Shown piece by piece: positions 8,207 through 49,914 of a DNA stretch of 64,000 nt (position 1 is its first letter; every line of letters starts with the position of its first letter). The notes beneath the pieces are model-generated. The model saw nothing but the letters and a program-made list of their open reading frames with translations. It ran no database searches and was not told the origin of the DNA. The stretch spans positions 1-64,000 of the forward strand of contig CAKZQS010000005.1 of assembly GCA_937141935.1 (NCBI GenBank). Reading direction: 5' to 3'. Source of the DNA: an uncultured Ectothiorhodospiraceae bacterium. GTDB taxonomy: Bacteria > Pseudomonadota > Gammaproteobacteria > Nevskiales > Oceanococcaceae. Position numbers and translations under genes: made by a program.

Positions 8207-8320
8207 GGTATTGGGGGGGTGTCGTCCTGCCCCCATCCTAGCCGGGCCGCGGGGCGGCGCGCAGCCCGTGGGGCCCGGGCCGGGCCGCGGTGGCCAAGCG
8301 CTGTGTGGCGGGCGCATTGC

Positions 8321-8326
8321 TAGAAT
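8321..8326 (+). promoter_or_regulatory. -10 element of a probably leaderless ndh promoter
   Basis: TAGAAT at 8321-8326 is a good sigma70 -10 hexamer, but the ndh start codon is at 8333, only six bases further on. Transcription would then begin at or next to the A of ATG, giving a leaderless mRNA, and no ribosome-binding site is visible before the ATG. No clear -35 hexamer is seen at the usual distance. Confidence 0.5.
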
Positions 8327-8332
8327 GTTGCA

Positions 8333-9667
8333 ATGCAAAAGACACGAGTCGTAATCATTGGCGGCGGCTTTGGCGGCCTGTTCTGCGCCCGCAGCCTGGG
8401 CAAACGCGCCGACATCGAAGTCACGCTGATCGACAAGCGCAACTTCCACCTGTTCCAGCCGCTGCTGTACCAGGTGGCCACCGGCATGCTGACGGTGGGC
8501 GATGTGTCGACCCAGCAGCGCGTGGTGCTGCGCCGCTACCCCAACGTGCGCACGATCATGGCCACCTGCTTCGACATCGACGTCGAGCAGCGCGTGGTGC
8601 GCCACGACCGGGGCGAAACCCCTTACGACCAGCTGGTGGTGGCCACCGGCGTCAAGCACCAGTACTTTGGCAAGGACCACTGGCGCGCCTACGCGCCGGG
8701 CCTCAAGACCGTGGAGCATGCGCTGGAGATCCGCCACCGCATCTTTCGCGCCTTCGAGATGGCCGAGACGGAAACGGTGCCCGAGCGCCGCCGCCGGCTG
8801 CTGAACTTCGTGGTGATCGGCGCCGGCCCCACCGGGGTGGAGCTGGCCGGCGCGCTGGCCGAGCTGTCGCACCGCACGATGGTGGGCGACTTTCGCGCCA
8901 TCAGCTCCGACGATGCCCACATCACGCTGATCGAGGGCGCCGACAACGTGCTGCCGCCCTACCCCACCAAGCTGCAGGCCAAGGCGCATGCCTACCTGGA
9001 GGGTCTGGGCGTGGAGGTGCGCACCGGCACGATGGTCGAGGAGGTGGCCGCGGGCCGCGTGCACACGCGCAACAAGGCCGGCGACACCGACATCGTCGAG
9101 GCCGAAACCATCCTCTGGGCGGCCGGCGTGCAGATGAGCGCCTTTGGCAAGATCCTGGCCAAGCGCACCGGCGGCGAAACCGACCGCGGCGGGCGCATGG
9201 TGGTCGACGAACAGCTGCGCCTGCCCACGCATCCCAACATCCACGTCATTGGCGACCTGGCCTGCGCGCAGCGCCACGACGGCAGCGGCCCGCTGCCGGG
9301 GCTGGCGCCGGTGGCCATCCAGCAGGGCCGCTACGTGGCCAAGGCCATTCGCCAGACCCACGCCGGCAAGCCGGTCAAGCCCTTTCGCTACTTCGACAAG
9401 GGCAGCATGGCCATCATTGGCCGCTACCGCGTGGTGGGCTCGGTGGGTGGCGTGGCGCTGACCGGCGCCGTGGCCTGGCTGTCCTGGGCGCTGGTGCACA
9501 TCTGGTCGCTGATCGAGCCCGGCCAGCGTGCCAGCGTGGCGCTGCAATGGCTGTGGCGCGGCTTCGGCCGCACCGCCGACCGCCTGATTACCGGCAACCC
9601 CCCCAAGACCGCCGACGTGCTCAAGGCCCGCGGCATCGACCCCGTCACGCTGGAAAAGGCGGAATGA
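8333..9667 (+). CDS. ndh: Type II NADH:quinone oxidoreductase (NDH-2 family)
   Basis: A 444-residue flavoprotein that passes electrons from NADH to quinone without pumping protons, on the inner face of the membrane. Two Rossmann motifs are seen: VVIIGGGFGGL near the N-terminus for FAD and FVVIGAGPTGVELAG (about residues 160-175) for NADH. The family segment FQPLLYQVATG lies at about 41-52, and GDLACAQ with VAIQQGRYVAKAI in the FAD C-terminal half. Hydrophobic segments near 360-390 would anchor it to the membrane. Its stop lies one base from the convergent barrel gene. Related FAD oxidoreductases of other function cannot be wholly excluded. Confidence 0.88.
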   Translation: MQKTRVVIIGGGFGGLFCARSLGKRADIEVTLIDKRNFHLFQPLLYQVATGMLTVGDVSTQQRVVLRRYPNVRTIMATCFDIDVEQRVVRHDRGETPYDQLVVATGVKHQYFGKDHWRAYAPGLKTVEHALEIRHRIFRAFEMAETETVPERRRRLLNFVVIGAGPTGVELAGALAELSHRTMVGDFRAISSDDAHITLIEGADNVLPPYPTKLQAKAHAYLEGLGVEVRTGTMVEEVAAGRVHTRNKAGDTDIVEAETILWAAGVQMSAFGKILAKRTGGETDRGGRMVVDEQLRLPTHPNIHVIGDLACAQRHDGSGPLPGLAPVAIQQGRYVAKAIRQTHAGKPVKPFRYFDKGSMAIIGRYRVVGSVGGVALTGAVAWLSWALVHIWSLIEPGQRASVALQWLWRGFGRTADRLITGNPPKTADVLKARGIDPVTLEKAE

Positions 9668-9668
9668 C

Positions 9669-10472
9669 CTAAAACTCCCAGCCCAAGTGCACGGTGGCCC
9701 CGTCTAGCGTGATATCCACGGCGTCGTCGCCCTCGGAGACGTCGTAGCGCTGTAGCTGATAGCCCGCACCGATGCGCAGGCCGCCGTAGGCGTATTCGAG
9801 GCCGGTGTTCCAGGAATACACGCGGTCGTCCTCGTAATCGACCCAGTCGCCGCCGGCGCTGAGCGTCCAGCGCGAGCCCAGCGGCCACACCAGCCGCGAG
9901 GCCAGCTGCGGGAATACGGCCTCGACCTCCTCCTGGCCGATGGTGTCGCCCTCGCGGGCATCCAGCGTGCCGGACAACCCGCGCACCGCCACGCCCACCT
10001 GCCAGGGCCCCAGCGCCAGCGGGTACCAGTCCAGCATCCAGTCGTCCAGGTCCACGCGGCTCTGCACGCGGGCGGTGCCATCGCCCAGCGGGATCAGGCC
10101 CAAAAAGGTTTCGTCGAACTCGATCACGCCCTCGCCCTCGGCGTGGATCGGCTGCCAGCGCAGGCCCCAGCGCGCGCCGTGCAGGCGCAGGCCCACGACC
10201 TCCTCGTCGTCGATGCCTAAGTCGCGCTCGACGTCGTAGCGGGTGCCGTTTTCGACCACCTCGCCTTCGGGCGCGGCAAACCACAGCGGGATTTCCAGCG
10301 CCACGCCGGCCTGCGCCAGGCCCAGCGGCGCGGCGCTGGCGGCCAGCGCCAGCAGGGCGACCGCGGCGCGCGGCGCGCGGGCGGAAACTTTGCCGGCGGC
10401 GGGGCTGTCAGAGGCCGGTCGCCGGCGGGGAGCGCGGGGGCGCGTGGGGTGGTCGTTAAGGCTGTTTCGCAC
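9669..10472 (-). CDS. Small outer-membrane beta-barrel protein
   Basis: About 267 residues. A hydrophobic signal core (VALLALAASAAPLGLAQAG) is preceded by an unusually long basic region. The mature part alternates polar and aromatic residues as in a barrel, with strands such as RWTLSAGGDWVDY and LRIGAGYQLQRYDV, and ends in Phe (VHLGWEF), the usual signal for Bam-mediated insertion. It resembles the TIGR04219 group of small outer-membrane proteins of unknown role. The GTG at 10472 has an AGGA ribosome site just upstream; an ATG at 10535 is possible but has none. Ligand or function unknown. Confidence 0.72.
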   Translation of the reverse strand: MRNSLNDHPTRPRAPRRRPASDSPAAGKVSARAPRAAVALLALAASAAPLGLAQAGVALEIPLWFAAPEGEVVENGTRYDVERDLGIDDEEVVGLRLHGARWGLRWQPIHAEGEGVIEFDETFLGLIPLGDGTARVQSRVDLDDWMLDWYPLALGPWQVGVAVRGLSGTLDAREGDTIGQEEVEAVFPQLASRLVWPLGSRWTLSAGGDWVDYEDDRVYSWNTGLEYAYGGLRIGAGYQLQRYDVSEGDDAVDITLDGATVHLGWEF

Positions 10473-10594
10473 GTCGCGGATTCCTGGCGTTTTTGAGCGG
10501 GCGTCTTGAAAACGGTCGGGGTCGGCCCTATGCACGGGCTGGCTGCGGCGGCACGCCGCTGCCGACGAGACACACCCTACACGCGAGAGTTCCC

Positions 10595-11950
10595 ATGGGC
10601 CGGACCGGGCTTGCCCTGCGCTACATGATCATCGCCCTGCTGCTGGTGGCCGGCAGCGGCGCGCTATGGGCGCACTGGCCGCCGACCGGCGGCGGTGGGC
10701 AGCGCAGCATTGCGCCGATGCTGGAGCGGGTGATGCCCGGCGTCGTCAACATCGCCACGCGCACGCAGCTGGCCCAGCAGGACCACCCGCTGCGCCAGGA
10801 CCCCTTCTTTCGCTTCTTCTTCGACCGGCCCTCGCCGCGGCAGAGCAATGCGCTGGGCAGCGGCGTCATCGTCGACGCCCGCGAGGGGCTGGTGCTGACC
10901 AACCACCACGTCATCGACAAGGCCAGCGAGATCAGCGTGACGCTGAACGACGGCCGCACGCTGGCCGCCGAGCTGGTGGGCTCGGATGCCGAATCCGACA
11001 TCGCCGTGATCCGCATTCCGGCCGAGGACCTCACGGCCGTGCCGCTGGGCGATTCCGATGCGCTGCGTGTGGGCGACTTTGTCGTGGCCATTGGCAACCC
11101 CTTCGGGCTGGGGCAGACGGTGACCTCGGGCATCGTGTCGGCGCTGGGCCGCTCGGGCCTGGGCATCGAGGGCTATGAGGACTTCATCCAGACCGACGCC
11201 TCGATCAACCCGGGCAACTCCGGCGGCGCGCTGGTGGACATCGACGGCCGCCTGATCGGCATCAACACCGCCATCATCGGCCCGGCCGGCGGCAACGTGG
11301 GCATTGGCTTTGCCATCCCGGTGCTGATGGCCAAGGCGCTGATGGAGCAGATCGTTGAATACGGCGCCGTCAGCCGCGGCCGCCTGGGCGTGAGCCTGCA
11401 GGATCTCTCGCCCGAGCTGGCCGCCGCGCTGGGCGCCGAGCAGGTCCGCGGCGCCGTGGTGGCCCAGGTCGAGCCGCGCTCGGCCGCCGAGCAGGCCGGG
11501 CTGCGCTCGGGCGACATCGTTACCGCCGTCAACGGCCGCGACATCGACTCGGCCACCGACCTGCGCAACGCCATCGGCCTGGTGCGGGTGGGCGAAAGCC
11601 TGCGCCTGCAGCTGTTCCGTGATGGCAGCACGCGCACGGTGACGGCCACCATCCCCGAGCGCGCAGCGCTGGATGCGGCCCGGCTGTCGGAGCTGCTGGG
11701 CGGTGCCACGCTGGGCGACATGGACGAACGCCACCCGCTGTTTGGCCGCGTGCCGGGCGTGATGGTCAAGGCGGTGCAGCCGCGCACGCCCGCCTCGCGC
11801 GCCGGGCTGCGGCCGGGCGACGTGATCACCTCGGTCAACCGCCAGCCGGTGGCCGGGCTGGAGCAGTTCAAGCAGGCCGCCGGCGGCAGCCAGCAACTGC
11901 TGCTGAACGTGCGCCGGGGGCGGCAGGCCTTCTTTTTGATGCTGCGCTAG
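10595..11950 (+). CDS. HtrA/DegQ family periplasmic serine protease
   Basis: A 451-residue quality-control protease that degrades misfolded envelope proteins. An N-terminal hydrophobic segment (residues about 8-26) is a signal peptide or anchor. The trypsin-like triad is His105 (NHHVID), Asp135 (AESDIAVIRI) and Ser209 (GNSGG). Two PDZ domains follow, at about 260-345 and 365-450, so it has DegP/DegQ rather than DegS architecture. The linker DPFFRFFFDRPS resembles the LA loop of the MucD/DegQ group. ATG 10595 was chosen because it starts directly before the signal segment; the frame is open upstream. It is transcribed alone and diverges from the barrel gene. Confidence 0.9.
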   Translation: MGRTGLALRYMIIALLLVAGSGALWAHWPPTGGGGQRSIAPMLERVMPGVVNIATRTQLAQQDHPLRQDPFFRFFFDRPSPRQSNALGSGVIVDAREGLVLTNHHVIDKASEISVTLNDGRTLAAELVGSDAESDIAVIRIPAEDLTAVPLGDSDALRVGDFVVAIGNPFGLGQTVTSGIVSALGRSGLGIEGYEDFIQTDASINPGNSGGALVDIDGRLIGINTAIIGPAGGNVGIGFAIPVLMAKALMEQIVEYGAVSRGRLGVSLQDLSPELAAALGAEQVRGAVVAQVEPRSAAEQAGLRSGDIVTAVNGRDIDSATDLRNAIGLVRVGESLRLQLFRDGSTRTVTATIPERAALDAARLSELLGGATLGDMDERHPLFGRVPGVMVKAVQPRTPASRAGLRPGDVITSVNRQPVAGLEQFKQAAGGSQQLLLNVRRGRQAFFLMLR

Positions 11951-28458: not shown

Positions 28459-30660
28459 CTACAGCGCGCGCAAGGCCTCGCGCAGCATGCCCGGGGTCAG
28501 CAACTGCGGCAGCACCTCGACCTCGCCCGCCCGGTCGTAGAGCAGGTAAAGCGGCACGCCGTTGCGGCCGAACTCGGCCAGTCCGGCGGTCACGGCCGGG
28601 TCCTGGCGGGTCCAGTCGGCCTTCAGCAGCACCACACCCTTGGCCGCGATCAGCCGCTGCACGCCGGGGTCGGCAATGGCCGCGCGCTCGTTGACCAGGC
28701 AGGTAATGCACCAGTCGGCGGTGAAATCGACAAAGACCGGCTCGCCGGCGGCGCGCAGCTCGGCCACGCGCGCCTGTGACCAGGGCTGCCAGTCGCCGGC
28801 CAGACGCGACTGCGCCGGCGGCAGCAGCGCCGGCGCCAGCACCAGCGCGGTGGCCAGGCCCAGGCCGGCGCCGCGCAGCCAGGGCCCGCCCAGCGGCCGG
28901 CCATCGCGGCGCTGGTAGGTGACGGTGGCCAGCAGCGCCAGCGCGGCCACGCCCAGCAGCACCGCCAACAGGCCGGCTTGGTTCCACACCACCCAGTACA
29001 GCCACACGGCCGTGCCCAGCAGCGGCAGCGCCATCAACAGCTTGAAGCGGTCCATCCACGGCCCCGGGCGCGGCAGCCGCTTGGCCAGCGCCGGCACGCC
29101 GGCCAGCACCAGGATCGGCAGCGCCAGGCCCAGGCCCAGGCTGGCGAAGATGGCCAGCGCCACCAGCGCCGGCTGGGTCACCGCATAGCCCAGCGCCACG
29201 CCCATGAAGGGCGCCGTGCAGGGACTGGCGACGACCACGGCGAGCACGCCGGTGAAGAAGGCCGCACGCGGGCCGTCGCCGTGGGTGAGGCCCTGGCCCC
29301 AACCCATCCAGCGCACGCCGATCTGCGTCCAGCCGGCCAGCGCCAGACCCAGGAAGGCCATCAACACCGCCAGCCCGGCGACCACGGCCGGATTTTGCAG
29401 CTGAAAGCCCCAGCCCAGCGCCGCGCCGGTGGCCCGCAGGCCCAAGAGCAGCAGCGCCAGCAACAGCGTGCTGGCCAGCACGCCGGCGGTGTACAGCAAG
29501 GCCTCCTGGCGTTTGGCGGCCAGGTTGTCGCCGCGCGCCAGGCCCATGGCCTTGATGGCCAGCACCGGGAACACGCAGGGCATCAGGTTCAGCAGCAGGC
29601 CGCCGCCCAGCGCGAAGAGCAGCGCCAGCAGCATCGTGGGGCTGGCGTCGCCCGCGGCCGCCGCGGTGCCCGCAACGGGGTCGGCCGGCGGCACGGCGGC
29701 CACCGCGCCGGCCTCGAAGTCCACCCAGCGCGCCTGCCCGGCGCCGACCACCACGGCGCGCAGCTGCTCCGGGGTTTCGACGCCCTCGAAGGCCAGCGGC
29801 CAGGCCAGCCGCGCCGCGCCGCCGGCAGCCGTGCCATCCACCGCCGCATCGGCCCAGCGCGGGCCGGCGGCGTGGTCCACGAGGTAGGGCCGCGCGGGAA
29901 AAACCTCGGCGCCGCGCGCGATGCCCGGCGGCAGCGCCAGGCGCAGCTCGCCTTCGGCCAGCTGGAAGCGGCCCGGCGGGCCCGAGGCCGGCGCCGGCAG
30001 GGCCGCCTCGGCGGCGGCGAAGACATCGCCATGGGCGGCCGGGCCGCGCGGGCCCAGATCCAGCGGCTCACGCAGCGTGGCGCCGCCGGGGATGCAGATG
30101 TCCTTGCACACCAGCCAGTCCACTCGCGCGTGCAGCAGTTGCGGGCCCTCAAGGTCGGCCGGTGGGGTCAGCGTGTACAGCAGCGTGTGCGTTTCGCTGA
30201 AGCCGTAAGTGACCAGCTCGCCCTCGTCCTTGGCCTTCGGCGCCGGCCATTGCGGGCCGTCGACGGCCAGGCCGGGCAAGCCGCTGAAGCGCGTTTGCGT
30301 GCCCCGACCCGCGTCGCCGGGGTTCAGCCAGTAGGTATGCCAGCCCGCGTCCGGGGTCAGCCGCACCGCCACCCGCAGCGGCTCGCCGGGTGGGGTGCGG
30401 GGGTGTTCGAGCAGCAGCTCGGCGGTGACCGGCCCGTCCTGGCCGCCAAAGTCGGCGCTGCCCGTGGGCGGGTTGCCAAACACCGGGGCCGGCACGCCAT
30501 CGCCGCCGAACTGCTGCAGGTCGAAGCCGCCGCGGGGCTCCGTATTCTCGTTCGCCTGGCTGGCGCCGTCGGGCTGCGTCGCGGTTTCGGACTGCGCTGG
30601 CGCGGCCAGCGGCAGCAGCGCGGCGGCCAGGAGCAGGGGGGGAAGGCGGAGATTCATCAT
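28459..30660 (-). CDS. DsbD/ScsB family protein-disulfide reductase
   Basis: A 733-residue electron relay that carries reducing power from cytoplasmic thioredoxin to periplasmic thiol proteins. After a signal peptide, a long periplasmic domain (about 45-340) contains WHTYWLNPGDAG and the redox pair in VCKDICIPGG. The eight-helix core has its two Cys in NLMPCVFP and SPCTAPFMG. The C-terminal thioredoxin domain has WCITC (about 650). The length and long N-terminal part fit the ScsB-like branch more than E. coli DsbD. ATG 30660 overlaps the stop of the GT9 gene (ATGA). Confidence 0.88.
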   Translation of the reverse strand: MMNLRLPPLLLAAALLPLAAPAQSETATQPDGASQANENTEPRGGFDLQQFGGDGVPAPVFGNPPTGSADFGGQDGPVTAELLLEHPRTPPGEPLRVAVRLTPDAGWHTYWLNPGDAGRGTQTRFSGLPGLAVDGPQWPAPKAKDEGELVTYGFSETHTLLYTLTPPADLEGPQLLHARVDWLVCKDICIPGGATLREPLDLGPRGPAAHGDVFAAAEAALPAPASGPPGRFQLAEGELRLALPPGIARGAEVFPARPYLVDHAAGPRWADAAVDGTAAGGAARLAWPLAFEGVETPEQLRAVVVGAGQARWVDFEAGAVAAVPPADPVAGTAAAAGDASPTMLLALLFALGGGLLLNLMPCVFPVLAIKAMGLARGDNLAAKRQEALLYTAGVLASTLLLALLLLGLRATGAALGWGFQLQNPAVVAGLAVLMAFLGLALAGWTQIGVRWMGWGQGLTHGDGPRAAFFTGVLAVVVASPCTAPFMGVALGYAVTQPALVALAIFASLGLGLALPILVLAGVPALAKRLPRPGPWMDRFKLLMALPLLGTAVWLYWVVWNQAGLLAVLLGVAALALLATVTYQRRDGRPLGGPWLRGAGLGLATALVLAPALLPPAQSRLAGDWQPWSQARVAELRAAGEPVFVDFTADWCITCLVNERAAIADPGVQRLIAAKGVVLLKADWTRQDPAVTAGLAEFGRNGVPLYLLYDRAGEVEVLPQLLTPGMLREALRAL

Positions 30661-31715
30661 GCGGCGGTGTCGGCGAGCAGGCGGTCGGCGGCGGCAATGA
30701 CGGCCTGCGGCTGCAGCAGGTCCATCACGCCGGCTTCTTCGATCTTGTGGCCCCAGCGAAGTTCGCCGGCCTCGCGGCCGCGATAACGGCGCGCGGCCTC
30801 GGGGTAGGCATTGGCGGCGTAGTCGCGCCAGTGAAAGGGGCCGCTGCGCTGCGGGTCGGTGGCCGCATACAGCCCCAGCACCGGGATGCCGGCCACGGTG
30901 CCAAAGTGCGCCGGCCCGGAATCCGGGCTGACCAGCAGGCGGGCGCGGCGCAGCAGGGCCAGGAACTGCGGCAGCGTGTCCTGGCCGACGAGATTCAGGC
31001 TGGGCTGGCGCATGCGCGCGGCGATGGCGGCGGCCACCTCGCGCTCCAGCGCGCTGGGCCCGCCGCACAGCAGAACCCGCAGCCCATGCTGGCTGGCAAG
31101 GTGGTCGGCCAGCTGCGCGTAACCCTCGACATGCCAGTTGCGCCGCTCGTGGCTGGAACAGGGGCTGATGACCACATAGGGCGCATCGCCGGGCGCGGCC
31201 TCGCGGGCCCACTGCGCATCGGCCGGCGCCTCGGGCAGGCTCCAGTCCCAGCGCGGCGTCGCACCCAGCGCGGTGGCGAATCGCATCAGCGTCTGCGCCA
31301 CATGGCCGTCGGGGTGTGCGGGGATGCGCCGGTTGATGAACAGCCCATGGCCCTCCTTGGCGCGCGCCCGGTCATAGCCCCAGCGGGCCCGGGCCGGCAG
31401 CGCCCGGCTGAGCAGGTTGGCCCGCAGCGAGAGCTGCATCAGCAGCAGGTCATCAAAGCGGCCGCCGTGCAGCGCCTCGGCCACTTCGCGGGTGAGCTGG
31501 CGCCGGGCGGCGCGACCGCCGCGCTTGTCGTAAACGTGAAAGCGCACCCCCGGCAGGGCCCCGACCAGCTTGTGCTCGAGCTTGCCGATGACCCAGTGCA
31601 GCGCGCGCCCGGGCCAGTGGGCCTGCAGGCTGTGCACGACCGGCAGCACATGGGTCACATCGCCCAGCGCCGACAGGCGCAACAGGCACAAGGGACCAGG
31701 GTTAGGGGTGGACAT
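30657..31715 (-). CDS. Glycosyltransferase family 9 (heptosyltransferase-like)
   Basis: A 352-residue GT-B enzyme of the heptosyltransferase family, which builds the LPS inner core. It opens with CLLRLSALGDVTHVLPVV, the GT9 acceptor-side motif. The donor-side half has VVISPCSSHERRNWHVEGYAQ and LVSPDSGPAHFGTVAGIPVLGLYA, typical of ADP-heptose transferases. Its stop overlaps the ATG of the disulfide reductase, so the two are cotranscribed, an unusual pairing. Which core position it serves is unknown. Confidence 0.87.
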   Translation of the reverse strand: MSTPNPGPLCLLRLSALGDVTHVLPVVHSLQAHWPGRALHWVIGKLEHKLVGALPGVRFHVYDKRGGRAARRQLTREVAEALHGGRFDDLLLMQLSLRANLLSRALPARARWGYDRARAKEGHGLFINRRIPAHPDGHVAQTLMRFATALGATPRWDWSLPEAPADAQWAREAAPGDAPYVVISPCSSHERRNWHVEGYAQLADHLASQHGLRVLLCGGPSALEREVAAAIAARMRQPSLNLVGQDTLPQFLALLRRARLLVSPDSGPAHFGTVAGIPVLGLYAATDPQRSGPFHWRDYAANAYPEAARRYRGREAGELRWGHKIEEAGVMDLLQPQAVIAAADRLLADTAA

Positions 31716-37409: not shown

Positions 37410-38825
37410 ATGAACACACTCATCTCTGGCGCCGCTCGTCGGCGCAATGCTGCGCTGCGCGGTGGCCTGCTGCTGGCCTGCACGCTGGGGGCGGGGCTGG
37501 CTCAAGCGCAGCCCGGCGCGACCCTTGGCGGCCACGCCCATGGCGGCAACGCCAGACTGACCCATGCACTGCTTCCGGAGGTGCATCTGGGGCGCCTGGC
37601 GCCGCAACATATGCCCTGCCTCGCCCGCGACGGCGTGGTCTACAGCAATGGCGTCGACGCCTCGGAGGCCAGCGCGCCCAGCGGCGGCATGCTGGGAGGG
37701 CCGGCGTTGCAGCTGCAGACCGGCCACGTTTCCAACAGCGGCGAAATCAACAGCACGAGCGGGCTGCGCGTCGTGCGCGAGCAATCCCAAGTCAGCCGTG
37801 TTTCGTTGCTGGGCGGGCTGATTCAGGCCGATGCGGTGGAGGCAAACTCCTTCACCGACGAAAACGGCGCCCAGGGCGGCAGCACCCTGCTGCAAAACCT
37901 GGTGATTGCGGGCACACCCATCAGCCAACAATCACCGCCCCCCAACACGGTGCTGACGCCGCAAAACTCCGCGCTGCCGCCGGGCCTGCGGGTGGTGCTG
38001 AACGAACAGCGCGTCAATGCCCGCGGGCAACAGGTCGTGCACGGCCTGCATGTCATCGTGCAGGACCTGGCCGGCTACTCGGGGCACATCCGGATCGCCC
38101 GAGCGGTCACGCAACTGCGTGAGGGCCGGCCGGGGCTGCGCGCCGTGGCCTACGGCCTGACCCAACACAACACGGCCGCGGCGCAGGGCAACGGGGGCAG
38201 CCAGCGGACCGGCAAGCAAAACATCGTGCGGCTGGCCTGCCGCGCCGACTACAAGACCGATACGCAGGTTCGTGCGACGGTCCCGGGGCTGGTGACCACC
38301 GGCACGCTGGTTTCGGAGGTGCAGGGGGACAACCTGCCGCGTGCCCGCGCGCTGTCGCGCGTGGAGGACGTCAGCCTGCTGGGTGGGCTGGTGACGGCCG
38401 ACGCGGTCACGGCCATCGTCGACAGCCACAGCCAGGGTGGCGTGGCGCAGTCCAGCGGCGCGGAATCGCAGTTTGTCGGCCTGCGCGTGAATGGCCTGCC
38501 CATAGGCAACGTGATCCCGGAATTAGCCTTCGGCGTGCCCCCGAACACGCGCATCTCCGGCGCTCAGCTCGAGGCCGCGATCTGCGCCGCCGACCCGCTG
38601 GGCACGGCCTGCGCGCTCGCCGGCGGTTTGACGCTGTGGCTCAACCGCCAGTTGTGTGTCGTTGACGGCACGCGCACTGACCCCACGCAATGCTTCGGCC
38701 AGGCTGACGCGCGCATGACGGCTATGGGCATTCAACTGCTGGTGGGTGCCAGCAACGCCGCGGCCGGCGCGCAGGCTGGCACAAACTTGCGGGTGGCCGT
38801 GGCGCACTCGGCGGTCGGCCCCTAG
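37410..38825 (+). CDS. Secreted protein with duplicated choice-of-anchor P type domain
   Basis: A 471-residue secreted protein. The signal peptide is residues 1 to about 33 (LLLACTLGAGLAQAQ). Two related units follow. Each starts with VSLLGGL(I/V)xADAV (about 131 and 320), goes on to a Ser/Gly-rich strand, then a (V/L)NG or IAGTPI-like strand, PPNT, and a (V/L)xLNxQ segment. This matches the choice-of-anchor P pattern. Such proteins usually carry a C-terminal sorting signal, but here the chain ends in LRVAVAHSAVGP with none. Three or four Cys could form disulfides. Its role is unknown; a surface or matrix protein is inferred. Confidence 0.7.
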   Translation: MNTLISGAARRRNAALRGGLLLACTLGAGLAQAQPGATLGGHAHGGNARLTHALLPEVHLGRLAPQHMPCLARDGVVYSNGVDASEASAPSGGMLGGPALQLQTGHVSNSGEINSTSGLRVVREQSQVSRVSLLGGLIQADAVEANSFTDENGAQGGSTLLQNLVIAGTPISQQSPPPNTVLTPQNSALPPGLRVVLNEQRVNARGQQVVHGLHVIVQDLAGYSGHIRIARAVTQLREGRPGLRAVAYGLTQHNTAAAQGNGGSQRTGKQNIVRLACRADYKTDTQVRATVPGLVTTGTLVSEVQGDNLPRARALSRVEDVSLLGGLVTADAVTAIVDSHSQGGVAQSSGAESQFVGLRVNGLPIGNVIPELAFGVPPNTRISGAQLEAAICAADPLGTACALAGGLTLWLNRQLCVVDGTRTDPTQCFGQADARMTAMGIQLLVGASNAAAGAQAGTNLRVAVAHSAVGP

Positions 38826-39069: not shown

Positions 39070-40983
39070 ATGCGCCCCAGCCATACCCTGCCGCCCCTCG
39101 TCCTGCTCGCCAGCGTCACGCTGGGCGTGCAGGCCATGGGGGAGCTGCCCGAGGACCTGACCGCGCTGAGCCTGGAGGCTCTGCTGGACATCGAGGTGAC
39201 CTCGGTTTCCAAGCGACCGCAGGGTCTGTCGGAGGTTCCGGCGGCGGTGTTTGTGCTCAGCGCCGAGGAGATCGAGAACAGCGGCGCGCGCACGATCCCC
39301 GAGGCCCTGCGGCTGGTGCCGGGGCTGCACGTGGCCCGCGTGGACGGCCAGCGCTGGGCGATTACGGCCCGCGGCTTCAATGGCGTCGTGGCCGACAAGA
39401 TGGAGGTGCTGATCGACGGCCGCAGCGTGTATTCGCCGCTGTTCTCGGGCGTGTTCTGGGACTCGCAGGACGTCTTCATGCCGGACCTGGAGCGCATCGA
39501 GGTCATTCGCGGCCCGGCGGCGGCGCTGTGGGGCTCGAATGCCGTCAACGGCGTTATCAACATCGTCACCCGCACCGCGGCCGACAGTCAGGGGCCCACG
39601 GCCTATGTCGGCGGCGGCATCGAGCAGGAGGGTTTCGCCGGCCTGCGCTACGGCGGCCGCGCCGGGGCGACGGGCTACTGGCGGGCCTATGCCCAGGCCT
39701 GGCAGCGCGACGGCCAGATGCGCATGGACGGCAGCGACGCGCATGACGCCATCGAGCGCGTACAGGGCGGCTTTCGCGCCGACTGGGAGCGCGGCCGCGA
39801 CCGCTACACGTTGCAGGGCGACGCCTACGCCGGCGAATTCGAGTTTGACGACCCCAACCTCAACCCCGAGGGCCGCGACAACCACCAGGACGGCCACAAC
39901 CTGCTGGCGCGCTGGCAGCGGCTTTTTGGCCCGCAGTCGCAGCTGTCGCTGCAGCTGTACTGGGACCACACCGAGCGCGTGCAGCAGGGCAGCTTTGGCG
40001 AAGAGCGCGACACCTACGACATCGAGCTCAAGCACAGCTTCGCCTGGGGCCAGCGGCACACGCTGGTGTGGGGCGCCGGCTATCGCGTCAGCCGGGACGA
40101 GCAGGCCAACCCCCCGCTGATCCTGTTCACCCCGGCCGAGCGCGAGGTGCGCAGCGCCAACTTCTTCGTCAACGACGAGATCCGGCTGCGCGAGGACACC
40201 GCGCTGACGCTGAGCGCGCGTATCGAAGACAACGAATTCACCGGCGTCGACACGCAGCCCAGCGTGCGCCTGAGCCACACCTTCAGCGAGCGCACGATGG
40301 CCTGGGCCGCCTGGTCGCAGGCGCTGCGGCTGCCCAACCGGCTGGACAACGATGTGCTGGTGCCCATCCCCGAATTCGGGGCCCGCGGCAACCCCGACTT
40401 CGAGTCCGAAGAGGTTCGCGTGCATGAGCTGGGCCTGCGCCACGCGCTCAGCCGCGAACTCAGCGTCGAGGCCTCGGCCTATTACAACGATTACGCCGAG
40501 CTGCGCGGCGTCGAGCCCGCGGCGGCGCCGGAAATCCCGCTGATCGTCAACAACTACGAGGGCGAGGCCCGCGGCGCCGAACTGACGCTGCGCTGGCTGG
40601 CCACGCCGTCGCTGACGCTGCACGCCGCCTACGCCTGGTTCGACCTGGACCTGGAGCCGCAGGGCAACAGCCAGGATGTGATGACCGAGCTGACCGAAGA
40701 CACGGCGCCCGAGCACCTGGCCTGGCTGCGCTGGGACTGGCGGCCGGATGCGCGCTGGCGCGTCGGCGGCCAGCTGCGCTACGTCGGCGAGGTGCCGCGC
40801 TACGCGGTGGACGCCTATACCGAGCTGGATCTGGAGCTGGGCCTGCGCCTGGCGCCGGACTGGGAGCTGAGCCTGGTCGGCCAGGACCTGCTCTCGCCCG
40901 CGCACGCCGAATGGGGCGAGGCCGACTCGCAGGTCGAAAGGGCCGCCTATCTGCAACTGAGCTGGCAGCCGGGGGCGCGCTGA
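39070..40983 (+). CDS. TonB-dependent outer-membrane receptor
   Basis: A 637-residue barrel receptor, short for its family. After a signal peptide the opening LSLEALLDIEVTSVSKRPQGL is the TonB-box region. The plug domain covers about 50-165, with PEALRLVPGLHVARV and IEVIRGPAAALWGSNAVNGVINI (in part). The 22-strand barrel follows. The ribosome site GGAG lies before ATG 39070. Its stop overlaps the YfiR-family start (TGATG), and a histidine kinase follows. This suggests that the receptor senses as well as transports. No siderophore or vitamin gene is adjacent, so the ligand is open. Confidence 0.9.
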   Translation: MRPSHTLPPLVLLASVTLGVQAMGELPEDLTALSLEALLDIEVTSVSKRPQGLSEVPAAVFVLSAEEIENSGARTIPEALRLVPGLHVARVDGQRWAITARGFNGVVADKMEVLIDGRSVYSPLFSGVFWDSQDVFMPDLERIEVIRGPAAALWGSNAVNGVINIVTRTAADSQGPTAYVGGGIEQEGFAGLRYGGRAGATGYWRAYAQAWQRDGQMRMDGSDAHDAIERVQGGFRADWERGRDRYTLQGDAYAGEFEFDDPNLNPEGRDNHQDGHNLLARWQRLFGPQSQLSLQLYWDHTERVQQGSFGEERDTYDIELKHSFAWGQRHTLVWGAGYRVSRDEQANPPLILFTPAEREVRSANFFVNDEIRLREDTALTLSARIEDNEFTGVDTQPSVRLSHTFSERTMAWAAWSQALRLPNRLDNDVLVPIPEFGARGNPDFESEEVRVHELGLRHALSRELSVEASAYYNDYAELRGVEPAAAPEIPLIVNNYEGEARGAELTLRWLATPSLTLHAAYAWFDLDLEPQGNSQDVMTELTEDTAPEHLAWLRWDWRPDARWRVGGQLRYVGEVPRYAVDAYTELDLELGLRLAPDWELSLVGQDLLSPAHAEWGEADSQVERAAYLQLSWQPGAR

Positions 40984-41639
40984 TGGCGCCATCTCCCATC
41001 TGGCCGGCCCGCGTAGCCGGCGGCGCGCTGCGGCCGCTGTCGCCAGCGAGGTTGCGGCCCCTGTCGCGGTCCCTGTTGCGGTCCAGGTCGGGCCCCGGCA
41101 CGCGGTCGCGCGCCTGGCTCCGGGTGGGCCTGCTCGCCAGCCTGTGCGCCCTGTGGGCGCCGGCGGCGCTGGCCGGCGACCTTGAGCAGCGGGTCAAGGC
41201 CGCCTTCTTGTACAACGTGGCCAAGTTTGTCGACTGGCCGGCCGACCCCGACGGGCGGCTGGATGTCTGCCTCTACGGCGACACCCAGTTCGCCGAGCTG
41301 GTCGCCGGCGAGCTGGGCGACAAGCGCGTCGCCGGCCGCCCGGTGGCCGTGCACGCACTGGCGACGCTGCCCGCCGGGCGCGACTGCCAGATGCTCTATC
41401 ACGGCGTTTACGCCGACGGCGCGCGGGTGGCTGCCGGGCTGGCGGCACTGGCCGGCCAGCCCGTGCTGACCATTGGCGAGGCCTCGGACTTCCTGCGCCA
41501 GGGCGGCATCATGCGGCTCAAGCGCGTGGAGGGAAAACTGCGCTTCGAGGTGGCCCTGGCGGCCGTGGAAAACTCCGGCCTGGCCATCAGCTCCAAGCTG
41601 CTGCGGCTGGCGCAGATCGTGCGCGACGGCGAGGGCTGA
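40983..41639 (+). CDS. YfiR family (DUF4154) periplasmic protein
   Basis: A 218-residue protein. A signal core (about 46-66, LLASLCALWAPAALAG) is preceded by a long basic leader, so the true start may be further in (in-frame GTG or TTG codons exist). The mature part opens with EQRVKAAFLYNVAKFVDWP, the DUF4154 signature, and contains two Cys (CLYG, DCQM) that may pair as in YfiR. In Pseudomonas YfiR is a periplasmic repressor of the diguanylate cyclase YfiN. Here it lies between a TonB receptor and a kinase, and may carry the signal between them. Confidence 0.87.
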   Translation: MAPSPIWPARVAGGALRPLSPARLRPLSRSLLRSRSGPGTRSRAWLRVGLLASLCALWAPAALAGDLEQRVKAAFLYNVAKFVDWPADPDGRLDVCLYGDTQFAELVAGELGDKRVAGRPVAVHALATLPAGRDCQMLYHGVYADGARVAAGLAALAGQPVLTIGEASDFLRQGGIMRLKRVEGKLRFEVALAAVENSGLAISSKLLRLAQIVRDGEG

Positions 41640-41643
41640 GGCG

Positions 41644-43227
41644 ATGACCCGGCGCTGGATCGCGGCCCTGCAGAACGTGCCCCTGCGGCGCAAGCTGCGC
41701 GTGATCGTGCTGGGCAGCACCCTGCTGACCCTGCTGCTGGTCACCGCGGTGTATGTCAGCTACGAGTGGTTCGCGGCCAACCAGCAGCTGCGCGAAGACC
41801 TGACGGTGCGGGCGCAGATCATCGCCGCCAACAGCACCGCCGCGCTGACCTTCAACGACCCCGATTCGGCGGTGGAGACGCTGGAGGCGCTGCGCGCGAC
41901 CCCGGATGTCGTGCGCGCCTGCCTGTACCGCATGCGCCCCGACCAGGCCAACGAGCTGTTCGCGACCTACCGCGGCGCGGGCGCGCCGGAGGTCGATTGT
42001 CCGGTGGTGGCGGCGCTGGCCGGCGCCCAGGCCCTGGCCGGGCACATGGGCGTGCGTGAAGACGTACGCCTGCAGGGCGTGCGCGTGGGCACGATTTTCG
42101 TCGAGGCCGACCTGCGCAAGCTGTGGGCCCGGCTGCGGGCGGTGATCTGGGGCGGGCTGTGGGTCAGCCTGCTGGTCGCCGCCCTGGCCTATGCCGCCAG
42201 CCGCCTGGTCGAGAGGGCCATCGCCCAGCCGGTGATGGACCTGCACGGCTTGATGCAGCAGGTGGCCAGCAGCGGCGACTACAGCCTGCGCGCCCGCCCG
42301 GCGGGGCGCGACGAGGTCGGCGCCCTGGTCGGCGGCTTTAACACCATGCTGGCGCAAATCGCCGAGCGCGACGATGAGTTGATTGAGGCCCAGGCGGCGC
42401 TGCGCATCGAGGTGGCCGAGCGCGACCGCAGCAATGCCGATCTATCGCAGGCCATGCAGCGCCTGCGCAGCACCCAGGACCAGCTGGTGCAAAGTGAAAA
42501 GATGGCCTCGCTGGGCGGGCTGGTGGCCGGTGTGGCGCACGAGATCAACACGCCCATCGGCGTGGCCTACACGGCCGCCACCACGCTGCAAACCCGCTCG
42601 CGCGACCTCAAGGACGCCTACGACGAAGGCCAGCTGCGCCGCTCACAGCTGGACAAGTTCGTGCGCCAGTCCACCGAGATCGGCGACATGATCGTCAAGA
42701 ACCTGGCCCGCGCGGCGGAGCTGATCCAGAGCTTCAAGCAGGTGGCGGTGGACCAGACCAGCAGCGAGCGGCGCCACTTCGACCTGCGCGCCTACATCGA
42801 CGAAACGCTGCTCAGCCTGCAGCCGCGGCTGAAAAAGCTGCCCTATGAGGTGCACATCGAATGCGATGTGGATGTGCGGATCGATGGCTACCCCGGCGCC
42901 TTTTCGCAGGTGCTGACCAATTTGATCCTGAACTCGGTCACCCACGCCTTCGAGGGCCAGGACCACGGCGAAATCCACATCCACGCGCAGCGGGTCGATG
43001 ACGAGGTCCACCTGCGCTACGAGGACGACGGCATTGGCATGCGCAGCGAACACCGCAAGCGCATTTTTGACCCCTTTTTCACGACCAAACGCGGCCAGGG
43101 CGGAAGCGGCCTGGGCATGCACATCGTCTACAACCTGGTGACGCGGACGATGGGCGGCAGCATCACGCTGCCATCGACCTCCAAGGGCATCGCGTTTGAT
43201 ATCCGCTTCCCGCTGAGGGCGCCCTGA
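41644..43227 (+). CDS. Membrane sensor histidine kinase with CHASE8-like domain
   Basis: A 527-residue kinase. Helices at about 18-37 and 163-184 flank a periplasmic region that has the CHASE8-like opening RAQIIAANSTAALTFNDP. A HAMP domain (about 186-240), a coiled coil, the phosphoacceptor region EKMASLGGLVAGVAHEINTP with His near 300, and a HATPase domain with the N box (NLILNSVTHAF) and GSGLGMHIVYNLV follow. The DxGxG and N motifs look intact. It starts five bases after the YfiR stop and overlaps the response regulator (TGATG). CHASE8 kinases often sit with YfiR-type proteins. Confidence 0.88.
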   Translation: MTRRWIAALQNVPLRRKLRVIVLGSTLLTLLLVTAVYVSYEWFAANQQLREDLTVRAQIIAANSTAALTFNDPDSAVETLEALRATPDVVRACLYRMRPDQANELFATYRGAGAPEVDCPVVAALAGAQALAGHMGVREDVRLQGVRVGTIFVEADLRKLWARLRAVIWGGLWVSLLVAALAYAASRLVERAIAQPVMDLHGLMQQVASSGDYSLRARPAGRDEVGALVGGFNTMLAQIAERDDELIEAQAALRIEVAERDRSNADLSQAMQRLRSTQDQLVQSEKMASLGGLVAGVAHEINTPIGVAYTAATTLQTRSRDLKDAYDEGQLRRSQLDKFVRQSTEIGDMIVKNLARAAELIQSFKQVAVDQTSSERRHFDLRAYIDETLLSLQPRLKKLPYEVHIECDVDVRIDGYPGAFSQVLTNLILNSVTHAFEGQDHGEIHIHAQRVDDEVHLRYEDDGIGMRSEHRKRIFDPFFTTKRGQGGSGLGMHIVYNLVTRTMGGSITLPSTSKGIAFDIRFPLRAP

Positions 43228-44192
43228 TGAACGATGACCTGATCACCCTGATAGAAGACGACGACGGCGACGCGCCGCTGGGCCCACCCTGGAAGGTGCT
43301 GGTGGTCGACGACGAGCAGGAGGTGCACAGCATCACCCGCGTGGCCCTGTCGGACTTCGAGTTCGCCGGCTGCGGGCTCGAGCTGCTGCATGCGCATTCG
43401 GGCGCGGAGGCCGCCGCCATCGTCGACCGCACACCGGACATCGCCGTGATGCTGGTGGATGTGGTGATGGAGACCGACCACGCCGGCCTGGACTTCGTGC
43501 GCCACGTACGCGAGGTCGCGCAGCTGCGCTTCCCGCGGATCATCCTGCGCACCGGCCAGCCCGGCCAGGCGCCCGAGCGGCAGGTGATTACCGAATACGA
43601 CATCAACGACTACAAGCAAAAGACCGAGCTGACCCAGCAGAAGATGTTCACGGTGATGCACACCTCCATCGCCTCCTATCGCGACCTGATGGCCTTGAAC
43701 AACAGCCGCCACGGGCTGCGCAAGGTCATCGAGGCCAGCGCCCAGCTCTTCGAGCTGCAGTCGATGGAGCGCTTTGCCCAGGGTGTGCTGGAGCAGCTCG
43801 CCGCCCTGCTCTACCTGCATAACGAGGCCCTGGTGCTGCGTGCCGAGGGCCTGGCCGCCGAAAAGCAGAACGGCGACATGGAGATCCTGGCCGGCACGGG
43901 GCGCTTCGCCGAGTACAGCGGTCGCAACGCGCGCGAGGTGCTGCCCGAACCACTCTTCGCCCTGCTGGCGCACACGGCCGAAAACGGCGGCTGGGTGCAT
44001 GGCGACAGCTATTTCACGGCGATGTACCGTACGGCCGAGGGCGTGCGCAACATCCTGTACATCGCCAGCGGCTCGCAGATTGGCACGCCCGACCGCGAAC
44101 TGATCGAGCTGTATTGCCGCTGTGTGGGCCGCGCGCACGACAACCTGCGGCGCGTGCTGGCCGCCCTGGGCGACCAGGGCCTGCCGGGATAA
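43227..44192 (+). CDS. Response regulator with DUF3369 output
   Basis: A 321-residue protein. The receiver (about 24-150) has VVDDEQEVH, the phosphoacceptor Asp in LVDVVMETD and ILRTGQPGQAP. The DUF3369 domain (about 155-315) is GAF-like and of unknown activity; in relatives it is followed by an HD-GYP phosphodiesterase domain, which is absent here. It is a probable target of the upstream kinase. Its receiver is a close paralogue of the one in the next gene. Confidence 0.87.
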   Translation: MNDDLITLIEDDDGDAPLGPPWKVLVVDDEQEVHSITRVALSDFEFAGCGLELLHAHSGAEAAAIVDRTPDIAVMLVDVVMETDHAGLDFVRHVREVAQLRFPRIILRTGQPGQAPERQVITEYDINDYKQKTELTQQKMFTVMHTSIASYRDLMALNNSRHGLRKVIEASAQLFELQSMERFAQGVLEQLAALLYLHNEALVLRAEGLAAEKQNGDMEILAGTGRFAEYSGRNAREVLPEPLFALLAHTAENGGWVHGDSYFTAMYRTAEGVRNILYIASGSQIGTPDRELIELYCRCVGRAHDNLRRVLAALGDQGLPG

Positions 44193-44202
44193 GGAGGCCG
44201 CG

Positions 44203-45387
44203 ATGAGCGAAGGCGACGACCTGGTCCTGCTTGGCGATGCCGACGAGAGCGGCGCGGCCGGCCATGGCCCGGCCTGGAAGCTGCTGATTGTCGACGACGA
44301 GCCCGAGGTGCACCGCGTTACCCACATGGTGCTCGATGACTTCCAGTTCCAGGGCCGGCCGCTGCGGCTGATCGAGGCGCACTCGGCGCGCGAGGCCATC
44401 GGCCTGCTCGACGCCCACCCCGACATCGCGCTGGTGCTGCTGGATGTGGTGATGGAATCCGAACACGCCGGCTTTACCGTGGTGCAGCACGTGCGCGAAA
44501 CGCTGGGCAACCGCACGATGCGGATCATCCTGCGCACCGGCCAGCCCGGCCAGGCGCCGGCCCGGCAGGTGATCCAGCGCTACGAGATCAACGATTACCA
44601 CAGCAAGGCCGAACTGACGGCCGAGCGCATGTACATCACGATCTACACCGCGCTGTCGATGTATGAGCACCTGCGCACCATCGAGCGCCGCGAGCAGCAG
44701 CTGCAGTCGGCCTATGCCGAGATCGAGCAGCTGGTCTACATCGCCGCGCACGATCTGCAGGAGCCCCTGCTCAGCGTCACCTCGCTCAGCCAGCGCCTGC
44801 TCAGCGTCAATCGCGAGCAGCTGGATGCCAACGGCGTGCGCTGCCTGGACTACATCGGCACCGCCGTCGGCCGCATGAGCGCGCTGGTGCGCGACCTGCT
44901 CGACTATTCCAAGCTCGGCCAGGCGCATCCGCCCGAGGCCGTGGACCTCGACGCCCTGGTGGCGGAGCTGCGCGAGGACATGGCCGGCCACCTGCAGGCG
45001 GCCCAGGCCCAACTCGACTGCGAGCCGCTGGGTCAGGTCCAGGGCCAGCCCACCAAGCTAAAGATGCTGCTGCAAAACCTGATCTCGAATGCCCTGAAAT
45101 ACCGCCACCCCGAGCGGGCGCCGCATATCGAAATCGGCCTGCGCCGTGATCGCGGCCAAGCGGTGTACTGGCTGGCCGACAACGGCATCGGCATCGCCGC
45201 CGAGCACCACCGCCGCATCTTCAACGTGTTCCAGCGCCTGCATGAGCGCGAGGCGGTGCCCGGCACCGGCATCGGCCTGGCCCATTGCAAGAAGATCGTG
45301 GAACAGCACGGCGGCCAGATCTGGGTGGAATCCGAGCCCGAGCACGGCACCACCGTCTTTTTCAGCCTGCCTGGAGACGAAGCATGA
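44203..45387 (+). CDS. Receiver-histidine kinase hybrid
   Basis: A 394-residue soluble protein with no membrane segment. The receiver (about 25-150) has IVDDEPEVH, the Asp in LLDVVMESE and ILRTGQPGQAP. The kinase part begins with the phosphoacceptor IAAHDLQEPLLSV (about 181-193) and ends in a HATPase domain with NLISNALKY and GTGIGLAHCKKIVEQHGG. A perfect AAGGAGG lies before ATG 44203. The order receiver-then-kinase means it can be switched on by a partner kinase and pass the phosphate on, for instance to the receiver in the next gene, whose ATG overlaps its stop. Confidence 0.88.
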   Translation: MSEGDDLVLLGDADESGAAGHGPAWKLLIVDDEPEVHRVTHMVLDDFQFQGRPLRLIEAHSAREAIGLLDAHPDIALVLLDVVMESEHAGFTVVQHVRETLGNRTMRIILRTGQPGQAPARQVIQRYEINDYHSKAELTAERMYITIYTALSMYEHLRTIERREQQLQSAYAEIEQLVYIAAHDLQEPLLSVTSLSQRLLSVNREQLDANGVRCLDYIGTAVGRMSALVRDLLDYSKLGQAHPPEAVDLDALVAELREDMAGHLQAAQAQLDCEPLGQVQGQPTKLKMLLQNLISNALKYRHPERAPHIEIGLRRDRGQAVYWLADNGIGIAAEHHRRIFNVFQRLHEREAVPGTGIGLAHCKKIVEQHGGQIWVESEPEHGTTVFFSLPGDEA

Positions 45388-45809
45388 GCACCCGGCTGCA
45401 ACGCGTGCTGCTGGTCGACGACGACCCGGCCACCAACTTCCTGCATCGCCTGTCGATCGAAGAGTGTGACTGCGTCGACGCCGTCGATGAGGCACTCAGC
45501 GCCGACGCCGCGCTCAAGCTGCTGCAACCGGACGACTCCGGCCCGAACGGCGCGTCCGCGCCGCCGGAGCTGATTCTGCTCGACATCAACATGCCCGGGC
45601 ACAACGGCTGGCACCTGCTGGACGCCCTGCGCCAGAACCCGCTGGCCCGGAAACCGGTCATCAGCATGGTCACCACCTCGGCCAACCCCGACGACCGCAA
45701 GCGCGCGCAGGACTACCCCGAAGTCGACGACTTTCTGACCAAGCCCATGAGCGGCGCGGACTTCCGCGAACTGCTGGCCCGGCACTTCCCGCAGGACAGC
45801 GCCCCGTAG
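45384..45809 (+). CDS. Single-domain response regulator (Rcp1-like)
   Basis: A 141-residue receiver with no output domain. It has LLVDDDPATNFLH, the Asp in LLDINMPGHNGWHLL, VTTSANPDD and the Lys in FLTKPM. Such proteins shuttle phosphate or bind partners. Its ATG overlaps the stop of the receiver-kinase gene (ATGA), the usual partner in Rcp1-type pairs. The 64-base gap to the next gene is slightly A/T-richer and could hold a promoter. Confidence 0.88.
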   Translation: MSTRLQRVLLVDDDPATNFLHRLSIEECDCVDAVDEALSADAALKLLQPDDSGPNGASAPPELILLDINMPGHNGWHLLDALRQNPLARKPVISMVTTSANPDDRKRAQDYPEVDDFLTKPMSGADFRELLARHFPQDSAP

Positions 45810-45873
45810 CTCTACGGGTGAGACCGGCGCGCTATTGGTGAATAATGCGGTGCTGCCCCCAGCCTAGGCTTTG

Positions 45874-49914
<4,041 letters not shown>

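Follow-up and report, generated by a model that had tools for sequence, protein, structure and literature searches.

In a 64,000-nucleotide (nt) stretch of the genome of an uncultured Ectothiorhodospiraceae bacterium (contig CAKZQS010000005.1, positions 1 to 64,000, hereafter termed the window), we have analysed a cluster of six genes at positions 39070-45809 of the forward strand, the first three of which encode a TonB-dependent outer-membrane receptor, a periplasmic protein of the YfiR type and a membrane sensor kinase with a CHASE8 periplasmic domain. Because these three genes co-occur in the order Nevskiales, in the class Gammaproteobacteria, on plasmids and in the clusters of the organism's own genome while the output domain varies, they behave as one unit with exchangeable output. 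With somewhat more confidence than doubt, we regard the cluster as a signalling unit that spans the envelope, with a TonB receptor in place of the YfiB lipoprotein and a histidine kinase in place of the diguanylate cyclase of the Yfi system.

The window has a GC content of 71% and is part of contig 5 of a draft genome of 3.57 Mb in 52 contigs; the GC content at third codon positions ranges from 0.82 to 0.92 across the six cluster genes. An earlier note on this DNA, made from the letters alone, had described six same-strand genes with named domains, all of which we find present, in the described order and supported by Pfam. Its statement that nearly all neighbouring genes overlap holds for three of the five junctions. 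A 1-nt overlap (TGATG) joins the receptor gene to that of the YfiR-like protein, and another the gene of the CHASE8 kinase to that of a receiver-DUF3369 protein (gene 4), while a 4-nt overlap (ATGA) connects a receiver-kinase (gene 5) to a stand-alone receiver (gene 6). At the remaining two junctions we find gaps, of 4 nt between the genes of the YfiR-like protein and the CHASE8 kinase and of 10 nt between those of the receiver-DUF3369 protein and the receiver-kinase, latter with a GGAGG sequence before the receiver-kinase start. Scores below the respective Pfam cut-offs were obtained for the HisKA domain of gene 3 (21.0 vs 26.9 bits) and for the receivers of genes 4 and 5 (28.4 and 30.0 vs 30.2 bits). 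Despite these scores, the catalytic histidine, the ATPase boxes and the Asp, Thr and Lys residues of the receivers are present and conserved in alignments. A domain scan of the six genes revealed neither a GGDEF nor an HD-GYP domain, in agreement with the earlier note, which had found no such output in the cluster.

Conservation of the receptor-YfiR-kinase trio

To describe the distribution of the cluster, we surveyed 85 genomes of the order, where a kinase search combined with the inspection of gene context identified 13 loci of CHASE8-type kinases in 12 genomes. The searches for this kinase and for the receiver-kinase used the best first-pass candidates per genome (17 and 22, respectively), and the CHASE8 assignment is based on a Pfam scan in case of the window and on full-length similarity for the other loci. 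At 12 of the 13 loci, a YfiR gene is located directly upstream of the kinase and is itself preceded by the receptor gene, and the thirteenth (L042) meets a contig edge. In other genomes, across families, genes 1-4 or genes 1-5 are found again in the arrangement of the window. The organism itself contains a second unit on the reverse strand of contig 32 (locus L006, 3887-9142), which consists of the receptor, YfiR, a CHASE8-type kinase and a receiver-DUF3369 protein and which is followed by a gene for a DUF6351 tannase-like protein and lacks a receiver-kinase. The gene set proposed in the earlier note is thus largely retained in relatives, with the receiver-DUF3369 gene found at 11 and the receiver-kinase at 8 of the 13 loci (one of latter in convergent orientation), except for gene 6, which was detected at the sister genome (G001) as the only one among 12 loci of the order. 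Gene 6 was for that reason rejected as a conserved part of the cluster.

On the level of the class, the sensor model NF053592 was used to search 369 genomes and 14 control genomes. Matches with E ≤ 1e-20 were found in 73 of the 369 genomes, and among the controls solely E. coli was matched, with a score below the cut-off. After exclusion of the rows from the own and the sister genome and of some weak, split or partial rows, 88 rows remained, of which 80 regions were analysed. YfiR is found directly upstream of the sensor at 55 of these 80 loci, and at 31 the receptor precedes it. The output at these 31 trio loci, assigned by hidden Markov models (HMMs) or motif patterns, is a kinase in 23 cases, a GGDEF domain in six and both in one, with neither recognised in the last. 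In a tree of 67 sensors, which includes YfiR-linked rows only, the output label changes at least seven times by parsimony, with two changes forced by well-supported branches. Carriers of the kinase type are mostly Proteobacteria among the named matches listed.

The trio is also found on plasmids. A tblastn search with the receptor (E ≤ 1e-60) identified three records, two from Sphingobium and one from Indioceanicola, and in all three YfiR and a protein combining the sensor with a kinase adjoin the receptor, the kinase body being of a CckA-like hybrid type. In plasmid pSRL1 of Sphingobium indicum B90A, which is typed as mobilizable, the trio with its CckA-like hybrid kinase body spans positions 6911-11111 of locus L272; its receptor and YfiR score above the NCBIfam cut-offs and its kinase sensor below (80.7 of 194 bits).

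The YfiR-like protein and the CHASE8 sensor kinase

The YfiR-like protein (40983..41639, + strand) contains a DUF4154 domain (Pfam, 131 bits) and matches the solved structure of YfiR (4zhu) in a phmmer search. Its best NCBIfam match is NF053591, with 117.7 bits against a cut-off of 125. In a relative from the same order (L043), the equivalent protein passes this cut-off with 143.4 bits and the kinase remains below that of NF053592 with 150.7 bits. The start codon ATG 40983, which overlaps with the receptor stop, places a long stretch ahead of a region resembling a signal peptide, and a later start nearer to this region, such as GTG 41124, is possible.

In P. aeruginosa and E. coli, YfiR is reported to act in the periplasm as an inhibitor that responds to the redox state (PMC4992967; PMC4655355), and the disulfide Cys71-Cys110 of the P. 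aeruginosa protein is reported to open under reducing conditions (PMC4655355). Cys96 and Cys135 of the YfiR-like protein align with this pair, which is kept in 12 of 12 YfiR sequences of the order and at 57 of 66 further YfiR-linked loci. The second pair of P. aeruginosa YfiR, Cys145-Cys152, which has a stabilising role, has no counterpart in the YfiR-like protein. Within the putative YfiN-binding patch, the phenylalanine at the position of YfiR Phe162 is invariant in the 12 sequences of the order. As a separate observation, a gene for a DsbD-like thiol:disulfide protein is located on the reverse strand at positions 28459-31212 of the window, 8 kb from the cluster; this neighbour is of interest in view of the redox sensitivity of YfiR and its location is probably a coincidence.

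The sensor kinase (41644..43227, + strand) is composed of a periplasmic CHASE8 domain (55 bits, cut-off 27) followed by HAMP, HisKA and HATPase domains. Its phospho-acceptor His299 is invariant in 12 sequences of the order. As for the YfiR-like protein, the best NCBIfam match scores below the cut-off (NF053592, 175.4 vs 194 bits), and residues 13-256 match the DgcN/YfiN model with 69.5 bits, far short of its cut-off of 325, which applies to the whole protein. Within the CHASE8 domain, Cys93 and Cys119 are invariant in the 12 sequences and were not seen in Alteromonas-type rows.

Two related receiver proteins accompany the kinase

The CHASE8 kinase is followed by a response regulator of 321 amino acids (gene 4, 43227..44192, + strand) containing a receiver and a DUF3369 domain (137 bits) and by a receiver-HisKA-HATPase protein (gene 5, 44203..45387, + strand), which is defined by its domains and alignment and which would be a soluble kinase gated by its receiver. 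At the 13 CHASE8-type loci of the order, both partners are found in six, only the DUF3369 protein in five and only the receiver-kinase in two cases, so that one or the other is present at each locus. These counts fit the proposal of the earlier note that the receptor is placed above a branched relay. The association extends to the 85 genomes as a whole, where all 11 full-length receiver-kinases (E ≤ 1e-50) are found beside this kinase type, seven on the same strand and four convergent, where 25 of 31 DUF3369 genes are located next to it, and where 30 of 33 kinases of the type have a DUF3369 protein, a receiver-kinase or both as neighbours.

Within a genome, the receiver of gene 4 is 51-56% identical to that of gene 5 (mean 53%), compared to 21-25% with the receivers of gene 6 and of a CheB-CheR protein encoded further downstream. 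In a receiver tree that includes those 14 of the 21 non-window DUF3369 receivers with a recognised start motif, the receivers of receiver-kinases from loci without a DUF3369 gene (L038, L043) cluster with DUF3369 receivers, with moderate support only. Co-occurrence and receiver kinship would both fit a single kinase that serves two partners.

In gene 4, we detected a receiver and DUF3369 only, and neither an HD-GYP or GGDEF domain nor one for DNA binding. In all 11 order loci of the CHASE8 type with such a gene, including the window, the protein has a length of 312-321 residues and ends after DUF3369. Since DUF3369 occurs in other genomes as a fusion with HD-GYP, GGDEF or kinase domains, it looks like a regulatory domain located between receiver and output. 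A DUF3369 protein with HD-GYP domain is also found within the order, beside a different kinase (L045). In Bradyrhizobium (L192, L197, L199, L211), receiver-DUF3369-kinase proteins of about 580 residues adjoin the same kinase type and combine in a single chain the domains that genes 4 and 5 encode separately, as confirmed by Pfam for L192.

When used to search solved structures by sequence, the receiver-DUF3369 protein matched in its receiver only. The predicted model of the entire protein (predicted local distance difference test, pLDDT, of 75.9) finds near-full-length structural matches in receiver-containing dual-sensor kinases, with 6oaq being aligned over 267 residues (Z 18.0, root-mean-square deviation (rmsd) 5.3, Foldseek E 4.7e-13). 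The second domain of the matched kinases is one that we take to be a GAF domain. For DUF3369 alone (pLDDT 77.9, predicted template modelling score 0.72), the top structural matches are mostly GAF domains, with 3ci6 aligned over 141 residues (Z 15.1, rmsd 2.8), and the best Foldseek E-value is a weak 1.3e-3. The absence of other families from these lists is uninformative. The models thus indicate that DUF3369 probably adopts a GAF fold.

The receptor and its potential ligand

The receptor (39070..40983, + strand) consists of a plug (Pfam, 80 bits) and a β-barrel (103 bits) and belongs to the TOL_0244 family, exceeding the cut-off of NCBIfam NF053590 with 693.6 vs 645 bits. An STN domain was not found, with Pfam at E ≤ 0.001 identifying only plug and barrel. 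The genome contains two strong members of the family, both inside clusters of the described kind, with the next gene scoring 58 bits.

The ligand of the receptor might be a long-chain alkane or another hydrophobic compound, which would be compatible with the proposed signalling unit and which we consider doubtful. In its favour, TOL_0244 of Thalassolituus oleivorans was reported to be sevenfold upregulated on n-C28 compared to Tween 80 (PMC6304351) and to share 40.3% similarity with OmpS, the alkane-detecting receptor of Alcanivorax dieselolei (PMC6304351; PMC5174103; PMC9788540). In line with a hydrophobic ligand, the genome harbours an AlkB-type hydroxylase gene on contig 28 (L267, 1096-2553), with matches in 73 of the 85 genomes of the order (E ≤ 1e-60). 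The gene carries four motifs that are presumably AlkB signatures, and the protein ends in a rubredoxin-like C-terminus (39 bits, compared to an NCBIfam cut-off of 90). Against such a ligand stands the near-universal presence of AlkB in the order, where it was detected in 11 of 12 carriers of the cluster and in 62 of 73 other genomes (p = 1), and the equal lack of association in the class (5 of 73 vs 17 of 296 genomes, p = 0.78), so that we rejected an alkane link via AlkB co-occurrence and retain it as a weak, literature-based possibility. Also against it, the solved receptor closest by sequence is the colicin I receptor, which carries the name of a catecholate siderophore receptor in NCBIfam.

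The output of the system

At 16 loci, several of which contain kinases with a different sensor, we scanned 19 genes that adjoin a kinase or receiver gene and found no recurring output gene. A fixed output gene was thus rejected: apart from GGDEF-type genes at three loci, the scanned neighbours are housekeeping or unrelated genes, latter including those for PhoH, an argininosuccinate-lyase type protein, a thioesterase, DUF6351, a folate enzyme and a MotB-like protein. In Spongiibacter marinus DSM 17750 (L172, 8869-13930), a kinase with another sensor, a receiver-DUF3369 protein lacking an HD domain and a receiver-kinase are directly followed by a PAS-GGDEF-EAL protein. At L044 a gene of the same architecture directly precedes the receptor, and at L252 a PAS-GGDEF gene is found near the receiver-kinase without adjoining it.

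Cyclic di-GMP (c-di-GMP) would, from sequence, be a plausible output of the relay. The receiver-DUF3369 protein, the receiver-kinase or both might control a GGDEF-EAL enzyme encoded elsewhere and thus act on c-di-GMP in trans, a scenario that is compatible with the proposed signalling unit and that we hold to be possible, at somewhat less than an even chance. It is favoured by the GGDEF-type genes at the three loci, by the described fusions of DUF3369 and by 11 GGDEF matches in the organism's own genome. The remaining scanned neighbours speak against it, and chance could account for two or three loci of this kind.

Gene 6 and the surrounding genes

The stand-alone receiver encoded by gene 6 (45384..45809, + strand) was assigned by Pfam and is of a type unlike that of genes 4 and 5. 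As it shares only the mentioned 21-25% identity with its counterparts in genes 4 and 5, this receiver does not suggest itself as a target of the CHASE8 kinase. A CheB-CheR-PAS-PAS-HisKA-HATPase-receiver hybrid (45874..49914, + strand) starts 64 nt downstream of gene 6 and was not included in the earlier note. In the sister genome, no such gene was detected within the 2.7 kb behind the cluster. The hybrid was therefore rejected as a part of the cluster and probably does not belong to the unit. A weak promoter-like site precedes it (45818-45846), in a search yielding one site in 7.4 kb with 0.4 expected. The stop codon of gene 6 falls within a perfect inverted repeat of 7 bp (45803-45818). Shortly before the receptor gene, at positions 37410-38825 of the window, we find a gene for a protein of the choice-of-anchor P family (NCBIfam NF040603, 158 bits) without Pfam match.

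Discussion

In the Yfi system, the diguanylate cyclase YfiN is repressed by YfiR via its periplasmic domain, and the outer-membrane protein YfiB is described to sequester YfiR (PMC3375315; PMC4655355). Beyond the observed gene content, co-conservation, domain and residue features and the kinship of the two receivers, we infer for the cluster an equivalent scheme of ligand sensing, binding, phosphotransfer and output. The YfiR-like protein would bind the CHASE8 domain and lock the kinase in one state, and the receptor would lift this inhibition. The freed kinase may then phosphorylate two partners with closely similar receivers, the receiver-DUF3369(GAF) protein and the receiver-gated kinase. 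The former, in which neither an enzyme domain nor one for DNA binding was identified, could serve as an adaptor that acts on its target by contact. The latter would hand the phosphate to a further partner, which in this genus may be the receiver of gene 6.

The receptor could alternatively be merely a regulated transporter, whose gene is part of the operon as target instead of signaller, while the YfiR-kinase system by itself senses the redox or envelope state and controls the uptake of a scarce nutrient. The published description of YfiR as redox-responsive inhibitor and the preserved redox cysteine pair would agree with this, as would the lack of an STN domain on the receptor and the finding that YfiR lacks an adjacent receptor at 24 of its 55 class loci. 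We nevertheless regard it as unlikely: receptor, YfiR and CHASE8 stay joined while the output changes between kinase, hybrid kinase and GGDEF, which one would sooner expect if the receptor were a signalling input than if it were a target of regulation. That six independent signalling genes came together by chance is very improbable. The missing conservation of gene 6 and the CheB-CheR gene beside the others would suit such a grouping, but it is refuted for genes 1-5 by their joint recurrence across families of the order.

Several points weigh against the proposed signalling unit. A report of an interaction between a TonB receptor and YfiR was not found in the literature searched, and the patch proposed to bind YfiN varies outside of the invariant phenylalanine, with the position of Ile169 occupied by alanine in 7 of 12 order sequences. 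The curated cut-off of NF053592 is passed by only 18 of the 369 class genomes, YfiR is not adjacent at 25 of the 80 class sensor loci, and where it is found, the receptor is missing directly upstream at the mentioned 24 of 55 loci, some of which are truncated. Among the best 80 named loci, 16 matched kinases were hit by a sensor model of our own, with YfiR at one of them (L176, downstream) and an adjacent receptor at none. Moreover, the counts were obtained with HMMs built on 8-12 sequences of the order, the receiver tree contains few well-supported branches and the co-transcription of the cluster genes is inferred from their spacing only.

Among known systems, the closest resemblance is found in YfiBNR (TpbB) of P. 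aeruginosa and E. coli, where a YfiR-family protein with the redox cysteine pair is likewise encoded beside an inner-membrane protein with CHASE8-type and HAMP domains, alongside an outer-membrane partner. The cluster differs by a TonB receptor in place of the OmpA/Pal-like YfiB, by a HisKA-HATPase output instead of a GGDEF domain on the same protein, by the missing Cys145-Cys152 pair and by its additional receiver genes. The same three genes as in the window are described by the NCBIfam trio NF053590 (TOL_0244 receptor), NF053591 (TOL_0243 YfiR-like) and NF053592 (YfiR-associated kinase sensor), each of which is the best match of its counterpart, whereas the downstream relay is not included in these models. 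In the cell-surface signalling system FecA-FecR-FecI, a TonB receptor is also thought to signal inwards. Different from this system, the window receptor lacks an STN domain and a kinase relay takes the place of the anti-sigma and sigma factors. Alkane sensing by OmpS in Alcanivorax dieselolei equally starts a signalling cascade at a TonB-dependent receptor, with neither YfiR nor a CHASE8 kinase mentioned in the available part of its published description. Finally, receiver-DUF3369-HD-GYP regulators, of which Vibrio cholerae VCA0210 is an example (PMC4212101), share receiver and DUF3369 with gene 4, which is devoid of the HD-GYP domain, and regulators of this architecture adjoin the same kinase type at several of the best 80 named loci.

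Yfi systems with kinase outputs and others without YfiB were already described in silico by Malone et al. in 2012, who termed the YfiR-YfiN core modular (PMC3375315); the word 'TonB' does not appear in the main text of that study. Because the NCBIfam models cover all three envelope genes and kinase-output Yfi systems were reported in 2012, the trio does not constitute a new kind of system, and the view of the earlier note that the cluster is little described thus applies to its less known downstream half. A paper on the receptor-YfiR-kinase set with two receivers was not found in the literature searched, which left out most subscription papers. The parts are thus known, and the trio with its downstream two-receiver wiring is hardly described.

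We tentatively propose that the cluster represents a further route of TonB cell-surface signalling, which would lead from a receptor without STN domain via a periplasmic YfiR-like shuttle to a CHASE8 kinase, or elsewhere a diguanylate cyclase, and in this order on to a receiver-GAF adaptor and a receiver-gated second kinase, with a hydrocarbon as a possible ligand. A compact, widespread module of receptor, YfiR shuttle and CHASE8 domain with exchanged output would provide a testable answer to the question of how TonB receptors that are not of the FecA type report their ligand to the cell. Such a module would tie the detection of nutrients or hydrocarbons to kinase relays or c-di-GMP, and it would assign DUF3369, with its probable GAF fold, a place in a pathway.

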